Positions 3,266 to 5,555 of a stretch of 24,226 bases of DNA are shown in pieces; the first letter of the stretch is position 1; every line of letters starts with the position of its first letter. Under the pieces are notes generated by a model that saw only the letters and a program-made list of their open reading frames with translations, did not search any database and was not told where the DNA came from. Source of the stretch: a virus. Position numbers and translations under genes: made by a program. Location of the stretch: IMG/VR virus record IMGVR_UViG_3300027714_000119, positions 1-24,226 of that record, one strand, 5' to 3'.

Positions 3266-3499
3266 TCAGCCCTCATCCTGCACCGCTTCTTCCTTGACTA
3301 TCAACTCTGCTGACACAGGTGTTGTCTCAACCACCATGATCTCAGACTTGACATAGTTCTTACGCATCTTAGTGTCGTTGGCATACGCCTGCGCTTCTTC
3401 AGGACTAGCCGCAGGTATCGTTATATAATAGCCCAACAATTCAGACATAAGAACTTTGTAGTTATGTACTGGTTGATCTAAATCCATTGCTTTTTTCAT
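3266..3499 (-). CDS. Hypothetical protein, 77 aa
   Basis: A 77-aa protein with a short beta/helix pattern: MSELLGYYITIPAASPEEAQ, where strand GYYITIPA leads to the helix SPEEAQAYAND, then a strand SEIMVVETT and an acidic tail. This resembles the many small phage proteins with a strand, an 'A-EEAxxxA' helix and a strand. ATG at 3499 overlaps the stop of the upstream gene (ATGA), and AAGGAG lies upstream inside that gene. It is the last gene before the 15-bp hairpin. Confidence 0.6.
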   Translation of the reverse strand: MKKAMDLDQPVHNYKVLMSELLGYYITIPAASPEEAQAYANDTKMRKNYVKSEIMVVETTPVSAELIVKEEAVQDEG

Positions 3500-3900: not shown

Positions 3901-4260
3901 CTAGTACCCCGCTGTTGTAGTGAATGTTAGGTTGCTTACTGCTTCATCAACTAGTCTACCTACCATGTCTTCTATTAAAGCTTCGTTATTCTCAGCACCA
4001 CTATCATCTTGTAGTTCACTGACTCTAGCATTTAAAGTATCAATAGATTCCAATGCAGTGTTTAGCTTCCATTCTAATGTCGCAATTCTATTAGCATCCC
4101 GCACCGCTACTGTCTCGTTTCCATGCGCTCTTTCTTTTAGAGCATCAGCTTTCTCACTCAGCTTCCGAATAAAACTCTCTCGATAATTCACATCGACTTG
4201 AATTCTATCATCGAGATATTTCTTTATTACTACGTCTAGTTCCTGCATTAAGTTATTCAT
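3901..4260 (-). CDS. Coiled-coil hypothetical protein, 119 aa
   Basis: A highly charged, mostly helical protein. A coiled coil is suggested by RESFIRKLSEKADALKERAH and then DANRIATLEWKLNTALESID continuing into TLNARVSELQDD, with hydrophobic residues at heptad-like spacing over about residues 25-88. ATG at 4260 immediately follows the stop of the mom-like gene, with TTGGAGA 7 nt upstream; that ribosome site lies inside the last codons of mom, so the two are linked. Function is unknown. Confidence 0.65.
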   Translation of the reverse strand: MNNLMQELDVVIKKYLDDRIQVDVNYRESFIRKLSEKADALKERAHGNETVAVRDANRIATLEWKLNTALESIDTLNARVSELQDDSGAENNEALIEDMVGRLVDEAVSNLTFTTTAGY

Positions 4261-4261
4261 T

Positions 4262-4867
4262 TCACTTCTCCAATTTTAAGTTTGATTGCCCGCCTAACAT
4301 TAATGCTTTTGGGTAAGGTTGAATCGCATAGTTTAACGATTTTATGTACATTTTCTTTTGTTTTTTACTGCAAACAAAAATAACATACCGATGTTTTGGA
4401 CTCCTGTAAACCCTGTTTTGCTTGTCTCCTAAACTATGTCTACTATGCTTTCCGTTTGCGGACGCTTGGTCTGTCCTCCCTTTGGTTGTGCCTGTAAATA
4501 AAAAGTTAGTAGCTTGATACACTACGCCACAATGGTTCTGAGCGGTGTCGGCATAGCTAACTACTATTTTAGGTTTCGGTAACAGCTTTAGCGAGTTACT
4601 TATAAGGTAGCTTGCTTCGTTTTTCTCGTTGTTTATCAGCACTAACCTGTTTAACTCAATGACATCTTGTTTATATTCAACTCCGCAAATCCCTTTGCAT
4701 AGAAAAGGTGACGCAGGTGATCCGTAAGTGACAATGCCAATGATTTTATTGTCTTTAAATAAACCATAAGCAAAAGAAATAGAAGGCATCCGTCCTGCAT
4801 AATGCACGTTTAAAATTAAATCTTTTGTTTGCTCATAGGATATCTGTTTAATCTCTAAATCTTTCAT
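4262..4867 (-). CDS. mom: Mom-family DNA adenine modification protein
   Basis: A 201-aa protein of the phage Mu Mom family, a GNAT-like fold that converts adenine in DNA to N6-carbamoylmethyladenine and so blocks host restriction enzymes. Family signatures are in order: HYAGRMPSISFAYGLF (H22, Y23) near the N-terminus, TYGSPASPF (47-55), the EL-N-R motif (E71, N73, R74), SYADTAQNH (S104 to H112) followed by GVVYQATNF (114-122), and a basic C-terminal part with KHRYVIF. Length is near that of Mu Mom. The gene is bounded by an imperfect 38-bp direct repeat (4269-4306, 4879-4916). Mu mom expression is tightly controlled; here it has only a weak GGAAT ribosome site, which fits low expression. Family assignment is firm; enzymatic activity is inferred. 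Confidence 0.85.
   Translation of the reverse strand: MKDLEIKQISYEQTKDLILNVHYAGRMPSISFAYGLFKDNKIIGIVTYGSPASPFLCKGICGVEYKQDVIELNRLVLINNEKNEASYLISNSLKLLPKPKIVVSYADTAQNHCGVVYQATNFLFTGTTKGRTDQASANGKHSRHSLGDKQNRVYRSPKHRYVIFVCSKKQKKMYIKSLNYAIQPYPKALMLGGQSNLKLEK
4269..4306. repeat. Direct repeat, copy 1, at the 3' end of mom
   Basis: A 38-bp segment matching 4879-4916 at 33 of 38 positions. It encodes the last residues of Mom (ALMLGGQSNLKLE) and supplies the ribosome site of the next gene. Spacing between copies is 610 bp, the length of mom plus 4. Confidence 0.8.
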
Positions 4868-4878
4868 GCTAATACCAT

Positions 4879-4916
4879 TCCAATTTTAAGTTTAATCACC
4901 CGACTAACATCAATGC
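4879..4916. repeat. Direct repeat, copy 2, just upstream of mom
   Basis: The partner of 4269-4306 (33/38). It covers the last codons (ALMLVG, stop) of the 67-aa gene at 4896-5099 plus the untranslated leader before mom. The pair looks like a duplication that brackets mom. Confidence 0.8.
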
Positions 4917-5099
4917 CTTGAGTGCTGACTCATATGACATAAACAATGGACTACCGTAATTGTCCTGACCCACGTAATAGCTATTAGCTATAGGTTCGTG
5001 AGCCGCCCAAGCTTCTTTACTTACACCATGCACATGATACATGGGTACTACCCTACCTTTGTCGTAAACTTGTACAAGATCAATTGACATCATGCTCAT
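4896..5099 (-). CDS. Hypothetical protein, 67 aa
   Basis: A 67-aa soluble protein (IDLVQVYDKGRVVPMYHVHG, later NSYYVGQDNYGSPLFMSYES). I do not recognise a family. Its C-terminus KALMLVG is nearly the same as the KALMLGG near the end of Mom because both lie in the 38-bp repeat, which suggests that the Mom C-terminus was derived from this gene or the reverse. Start at 5099 has TTGGAG 7 nt upstream and an AT-only palindrome (5116-5130) 16 nt upstream. Confidence 0.6.
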   Translation of the reverse strand: MSMMSIDLVQVYDKGRVVPMYHVHGVSKEAWAAHEPIANSYYVGQDNYGSPLFMSYESALKALMLVG

Positions 5100-5115
5100 T
5101 TTAACACTCCAATAT

Positions 5116-5130
5116 TTATAATAATTATAA
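5116..5130. promoter_or_regulatory. AT palindrome TTATAATAATTATAA, copy 1
   Basis: A perfect 15-bp palindrome (7+1+7) lying 16 nt before the ATG of the 67-aa gene at 5099. On the minus strand TTGAGA lies about 19 nt upstream of an internal TATAAT, so this copy could act as a promoter -10. Confidence 0.6.
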
Positions 5131-5150: not shown

Positions 5151-5336
5151 TCAATCAAACAACCTGTACCAACTACGAAGTTCCTCTGGCGATATCACCT
5201 TAACTGACCTCATGTTAGGGCGTAGCCTTGGATGATCGCCGTACTCAGCTTTCACTTTAGCCTGTGCTTCCGCTAATGTGTCGGCCATCACGGTATTCCA
5301 ACCGCCCGAATCAAAATGGAATATAAAATCTTTCAT
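5151..5336 (-). CDS. Hypothetical protein, 61 aa
   Basis: A strand-helix-strand mini-protein: MKDFIFHFDSGGWNTVMADT, then the helix LAEAQAKVKAEYGDHP and a strand MRSVKVISPEEL. The layout 'FIFxFxxGGxNTVxAxTLxEA' is common among phage mini-proteins of unknown function. ATG at 5336 follows the upstream stop by one base (TGATATG), with GGAGAG inside the upstream gene acting as ribosome site. Confidence 0.6.
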   Translation of the reverse strand: MKDFIFHFDSGGWNTVMADTLAEAQAKVKAEYGDHPRLRPNMRSVKVISPEELRSWYRLFD

Positions 5337-5337
5337 A

Positions 5338-5523
5338 TCAATCTCTCCAATCTGGTGTGATAGTATCTATGGTGTAGCCTAGCTGTTCGATCAAGGCCAG
5401 TGCCTCCGGTGTTAATGTCTTGGTGCCTGCTATCTTGGCGAATGTCTCTGCGTTATTACACGCAGGATAGATAACCTTGCGCCCATAGCTATGCTTGACT
5501 GCAACCAGTATTGATTTGCTCAT
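5338..5523 (-). CDS. Conserved-looking phage protein, 61 aa
   Basis: A 61-aa protein reading VAVKHSYGRKVIYPACNNAE, then TFAKIAGTKTLTPEALALIE, and ending LGYTIDTITPDWRD. The segment 'VK-YGxxxIYPxCxNAExFAxxAGTKTLTxxAL' looks like a small family I have met in diverse phages, of unknown role. The single Cys (C22) and following helix could form a small alpha/beta domain. ATG at 5523 has TTGGAG 7 nt upstream and an AT palindrome (5539-5555) 15 nt upstream. Confidence 0.65.
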   Translation of the reverse strand: MSKSILVAVKHSYGRKVIYPACNNAETFAKIAGTKTLTPEALALIEQLGYTIDTITPDWRD

Positions 5524-5538
5524 TTTAATACTCCAATA

Positions 5539-5555
5539 TTATAATTAAATTATAA
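5539..5555. promoter_or_regulatory. AT palindrome, copy 2 (17-bp variant)
   Basis: TTATAATTAAATTATAA is a perfect 8+1+8 palindrome, one base longer per arm than the other five copies. It sits 15 nt before the ATG at 5523. Confidence 0.55.

Follow-up and report, generated by a model that had tools for sequence, protein, structure and literature searches.

A one-gene mom cassette bracketed by short target duplications at unrelated sites in phage genomes

The stretch of DNA analyzed here in full, hereafter the window (24,226 nt; positions 1 to 24,226 of IMG/VR record IMGVR_UViG_3300027714_000119), is a 24-kb phage fragment whose portal protein is 63% identical to that of Pelagibacter phage HTVC115P, related to the HMO-2011 group. 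Between positions 3300 and 5600 it has no similarity to isolated phages at the DNA level. This region encodes a 201-aa protein that matches the Mom family PF25680 across the whole domain (E = 3.5e-37; 128.5 bits against a cutoff of 27.1; profile positions 1-202 of 202), as well as PHROG 1384 and, over residues 2 to 187, the structure of Mu Mom (PDB 8bv8; E = 5.3e-12). The Mu protein, a methylcarbamoylase, resembles the window Mom in family and in chain end, since the 8bv8 chain stops at QPYPK, the same point at which the cassette described below ends; the genomic setting of the two genes differs. Positions 4262-4867 also match PHROG 3339, "homing endonuclease," weakly (E = 1.6e-5), and Mom domains fused to nucleases have been described in jumbo phages (PMC7824862). 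The genes and segments at the locus are the following:

4262..4867, minus strand: mom ORF, 201 aa, 606 bp (ORF list, Pfam, PHROG, PDB)
within 4262..4867, minus strand: Mom catalytic core, residues 1-187, to YPK (PDB 8bv8 aligned over 2-187)
within 4262..4867, minus strand: Mom residues 188-201, whose codons lie in the downstream target copy and in the bases that follow
4307..4878, minus strand: inserted cassette of ~570 bp, consisting of the 11-nt filler ATGGTATTAGC (4868-4878) and the mom core; missing in empty-site relatives
4879..4919, minus strand: upstream target copy, with the end of the 67-aa gene, its stop and the spacer to TTGGA (repeat comparison)
4269..4309, minus strand: downstream target copy, with the Mom C-terminal codons and the ribosome-binding site (RBS) region of the coiled-coil gene; TAA changed to CAA, stop lost
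4896..5099, minus strand: 67-aa gene that precedes mom and forms the left flank of the target (ORF, relatives)
3901..4260, minus strand: coiled-coil gene (119 aa) that follows mom and forms the right flank of the target (ORF, relatives)

The initial annotation described a 38-bp direct repeat around mom (4269-4306 and 4879-4916; 33 of 38 positions matching, 610 bp apart). This repeat is real and well above chance, and it extends to 41 bp (4269-4309 and 4879-4919; 35/41 identical, 85%) at the same spacing of 610 bp, which is the length of mom (606 bp) plus 4. The flank-repeat score at this gene is 23, against a maximum of 10 in shuffled sequences, and the repeat has no further occurrence in the window at up to 3 mismatches (0.00 in shuffled sequences). 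The contents assigned to the copies also held: 4269-4306 spans the final codons of Mom together with the RBS region of the coiled-coil gene, and 4879-4916, in the mom leader, contains the end of the 67-aa gene. A point absent from that annotation is that both copies lie in one and the same reading frame. Elsewhere in the window, a second direct repeat (5093-5116 and 5517-5540; 23/24), which contains an RBS and start codon, lies on either side of two 61-aa genes (5151-5336 and 5338-5523), possibly another inserted pair; no relative with an empty site was found for it. A Pfam match of the coiled-coil gene to Vpu (1.6e-4) is below threshold and most probably an artefact of the coiled coil. The gene carries an extra internal segment in some relatives (L057:416-928, L062:1-303).

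Relatives without mom had been predicted to carry a single copy of the repeated segment, joining the 67-aa gene directly to the coiled-coil gene. Four records (L064, L065, L066 and L067, also listed as L057-L060) have exactly this arrangement, with the junction sequence ...AAGGCATTAATGTTAGTCGGGTAATTAAACTTAAAATTGGAGAAGTGAAATG..., which the window contains twice with the 11-nt filler and mom core in between. In blastn alignments of the window to these records (L057-L060/L064-L067), the window differs by an insert of 569 bp, and the matches on its two sides overlap by 41 bp in the empty allele. We call this position site A. It is filled in three records (the window, L001 and L002), and one metagenome (3300028925) holds both alleles, L001 being filled and L064 and L065 empty. 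Site A has no basal empty outgroup, and its polarity rests on the empty relatives and on recurrence; the reading as an insertion follows from the insertion of this gene at unrelated sites that are empty in relatives. On these grounds, the initial view of mom as an inserted cassette is supported. Among the empty-site relatives, L057:1556-1768 compared to L067 is a 211-bp gene insertion with a 17/18-bp duplication of an RBS and ATG.

The suggestion that the 3' end of a neighbor replaces or extends that of mom also proved apt, as the cassette stops at QPYPK and the remaining tail comes from the duplicated target. Two changes separate the upstream copy from the empty site (TTA to TTG and TAA to TGA), and neither alters the 67-aa product. 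Changes in the downstream copy alter the Mom tail and include the loss of the inherited stop (TAA to CAA), lengthening Mom. Mom would originally have ended in ...YPKALMLVG-stop, using its neighbor's codons and stop, and later stop loss would have extended it to ...GGQSNLKLEK. The sole match in the window to the 11-nt filler, with 2 mismatches allowed, was the filler itself. The gene is under purifying selection (dN/dS = 0.14, window versus the marine contig L003), and this low ratio, together with the intact ORF, suggests that mom is functional.

The same gene recurs at unrelated sites in other marine phages. In L003, a member of a different phage group (DNA polymerase nearest DSL-LC04 and HTVC023P), the mom core is 95% DNA-identical to that of the window (534/561) and lies between perfect 37-bp copies of a site unrelated to A (site B, filled in three samples). 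Relatives L070-L072, with flanks 99.6-99.9% identical, have one copy and no mom, and all more distant relatives (L074-L091) are empty. At site C, in the CRP-212-like phage L004 (mom 73% DNA-identical), the duplication is ~24 bp, L092-L094 are empty and the filler has no match in L092. Site D, in L015, has an 18/19-bp duplication with GCAGTA microhomology, and L258-L262 are empty. Mom cores 94-97% identical in DNA occur amid unrelated flanks, with homology ending near the ORF ends (L002/L003; L015/L016/L018), and Moms of the marine clade share a common core to YPK followed by unrelated tails of 0-20 residues. The right ends of the cassettes at A and B coincide to ~2 bp, and cassette ends are near constant in both. 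Divergence between repeat copies tracks flank divergence (0/37 at 0.3% in B, ~1-2/24 at 1.3% in C and 6/41 at 6-11% in A), as expected if the duplication arose at insertion. Weak flanking repeats were found at L006, L008-L010, L108, L118, L148 and L150, and none flanks the mom of CRP-902. A scan of bacterial genomes for a donor returned only relatives of 30-33%. The phage group of site B also has a 189-bp small-gene insertion with a perfect 26-bp duplication containing a hairpin (L084:4124-4314 versus L079).

Since sites A to D (four of the seven duplicated insertions) were found via their repeats, named phages with mom were picked regardless of repeats and mom-less relatives then sought, to reduce ascertainment bias. 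Target duplication was present in 3/5 resolved cases: a 46-bp repeat in DillTech15 versus one copy in Nivrat (site E), a 35-bp promoter repeat (33/35) in Riggi versus one copy in Finn (site F), and a 41-bp repeat (36/41) in JeffCo versus one copy in Barton (site G). Comparison of Rohr to Bob3 revealed a mom insertion with an overlap of only ~8 bp at the RBS, without the larger duplication. In the fifth resolved case, Proteus phages pPM_01 and PLY284, the latter is a deletion that keeps the mom 3' end and not an empty site. Listeria phage LP-125 was set aside, as its mom-less relatives have another gene at that place and so no simple empty site. The DillTech15 cassette is 97.8% identical to that of Rohr and includes 32 bp of what is upstream-gene sequence in both Rohr and its mom-less relative Bob3, which indicates transfer from Fromanvirus (cluster A) to Cheoctovirus mycobacteriophages. 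The DillTech15 repeat copies differ like two alleles, so the mechanism there may be a variant in which two divergent genomes exchanged DNA. The segment from the mom stop to the right repeat in DillTech15 (L272:2190-2231) resembles Nivrat L275:803-844, a sign of mosaic exchange.

Altogether, at least seven mom insertions with an empty-site relative (the window, three other marine contigs, DillTech15, Riggi and JeffCo) show a target duplication of 19-46 bp. They lie at unrelated sites in marine, Mycobacterium, Bacillus and Acinetobacter phages, and the repeats are target-derived and different at every site. Flanking repeats scoring at least 12 occurred at 15/86 mom loci (17.4%) compared to 13/346 similar-sized control genes on the same contigs (3.8%), and at least 16 at 7/86 compared to 4/346; in these counts related loci are incompletely thinned and some matches are of low complexity. 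Among gene-sized indels (59 clusters in 254 loci), four non-mom cases had a good duplication of at least 17 bp (L084, 26/26; L205, 36/41; L057, 17/18; L145, 17/20). The footprint is thus enriched at mom, yet not exclusive to it. A Fisher test of 7/8 mom insertions against 4/56 other indels gives p = 4e-6, a value inflated by ascertainment, and 3/5 named-phage cases against 4/56 gives p = 0.009; both tests involve small denominators and approximate indel clusters.

We consider it reasonably probable that mom was acquired horizontally as a one-gene cassette of ~570 bp, joined by illegitimate recombination with backward re-entry into the target. In this process, joining would leave the target after the RBS stretch TTGGA, pick up mom and re-enter the target ~41 bp upstream of the exit point, yielding the two 41-bp junction copies. 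The upstream copy would preserve the end of the 67-aa gene, and the downstream copy would preserve the RBS of the coiled-coil gene while giving Mom its tail and, at first, its stop codon. Template switching or annealing may be the joining route, and insertions that delete target sequence may be removed by selection. Junctions carry 0-32 nt of additional bases (fillers of 11 nt in A, 5 and ~27 nt in C and ~10 nt in D), with short microhomology at some (GCAGTA in D, TGA in B); these fillers, microhomologies and variable lengths favor illegitimate recombination with backward re-entry. Against it, duplication lengths cluster at 19-46 bp, when random joining with selection would also yield much shorter and much longer ones; random breakpoints give no reason for A and B to share nearly the same right end; and the Rohr insertion has an overlap of just ~8 bp relative to Bob3. 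The downstream copy in JeffCo has no obvious function, so selection alone fails to account for its retention. Like morons, which typically have a promoter and terminator (PMC3029335), the window mom is a single gene of foreign base composition (GC 36.7% in sequences of 42-47%) between neighbors that are contiguous in relatives. Unlike morons, the cassette has an 11-nt leader and no promoter or terminator of its own, and the duplicated target supplies its end.

A rather unlikely alternative is a dedicated enzymatic process acting in trans, for example one in which the two strands are nicked 19-46 bp apart, a captured mom copy is ligated and the gaps are filled, leaving duplications of variable length. 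Such staggered nicking is favored by the fairly narrow spread of lengths and by the matching right ends at A and B, where cassette ends are nearly constant. Duplication also accompanies 7/8 simple insertions with a sequenced empty site, compared to 4 of ~56 gene-sized indels not involving mom across these contigs, a contrast inflated because A to D were ascertained by repeats. However, no transposase, integrase or shared nuclease lies within the cassettes or recurs beside them, terminal inverted repeats are lacking, and junction bases and microhomology vary. A related reading, that mom is a specifically mobilized single-gene element without a transposase, probably mobilized by nicking or strand-transfer activity supplied in trans in phages of unrelated hosts, is in our view unlikely. 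A classical DNA transposon or IS was rejected: mom is the sole gene in the window cassette, with no transposase; the best inverted match at the ends of eight mom loci is 5-7, within the shuffle range; and duplication lengths are not fixed (41, 37, ~24, 19, 46, 35 and 41 bp, plus ~8 bp). Mycobacteriophage elements MPME1/2 are 439 bp long, bear inverted repeats at their termini and have 6 bp inserted on the left (PMC3029335). Mom cassettes are likewise very small mobile DNA at differing sites in close relatives, but they lack inverted repeats and have target duplications of 19-46 bp.

It is quite improbable that homologous recombination between pre-existing regulatory or start-associated repeats brought mom in, in the manner of PeSL- or SAS-like exchange. 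In the PeSL cassettes of T4-type phages, attributed to Arbiol 2010, direct repeats of regulatory sequences reportedly flank shuffled genes. Duplications at A, B and D do include an RBS or start codon, that at F is a promoter, and some control genes are also flanked by such repeats. PeSL repeats would be common to many genome sites, whereas every mom repeat is site-specific and single-copy in the empty alleles at A to G, the upstream copy in the window occurs there once (the repeat being unique within 3 mismatches), and mom repeats include coding sequence, those at C and G being coding sequence of the upstream gene.

That mom and both repeats are ancestral, with empty alleles formed by deletion between the repeats, is very improbable, although deletion is the customary account of such segments in bacteria. 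Loss between direct repeats of 35-46 bp would yield an identical empty allele, and repeats are seen as the cause of deletion in small variable bacterial segments flanked by short direct repeats, for which illegitimate recombination is invoked (PMC2884548). Unlike at those segments, outgroups of the mom sites show that insertion created the repeat: L074-L091 (B) and L093 and L094 (C) are all empty. One core (95% DNA identity) occupies the unrelated sites A and B, and few of the >200 Rohr relatives and ~400 DillTech15 relatives that match the flanking DNA have mom. A genuine loss of mom, that in Proteus PLY284, instead left a piece of its 3' end behind. Ancestral mom conflicts with the evidence at sites B to F, a basal empty outgroup being missing for A. 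Chimeric contigs fusing mom to unrelated flanks are exceedingly improbable: these are metagenome contigs with a repeat at both junctions, but A is filled in three records, B in three samples, and three cases are finished isolate genomes. Neither a reverse transcriptase nor a poly-A signature was seen, and retroposition of mom mRNA is unlikely.

The entry of single genes into crowded phage genomes, with the genes beside them left working, has long been a question, and the usual answer, "illegitimate recombination," comes without before/after pairs. Moron-like gene gain is already known; we found no description of a recurrent duplication footprint tied to one gene in the searchable open literature. 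For mom, seven such pairs are available, and isolated phages provide three of these. The duplicated join point suggests how an insertion survives, as the neighbors keep their ends and signals while the new gene may borrow a tail, a stop or a promoter. The anti-restriction gene mom also moves between phages that are unrelated, one transfer being from cluster A (Fromanvirus) to Cheoctovirus mycobacteriophages.
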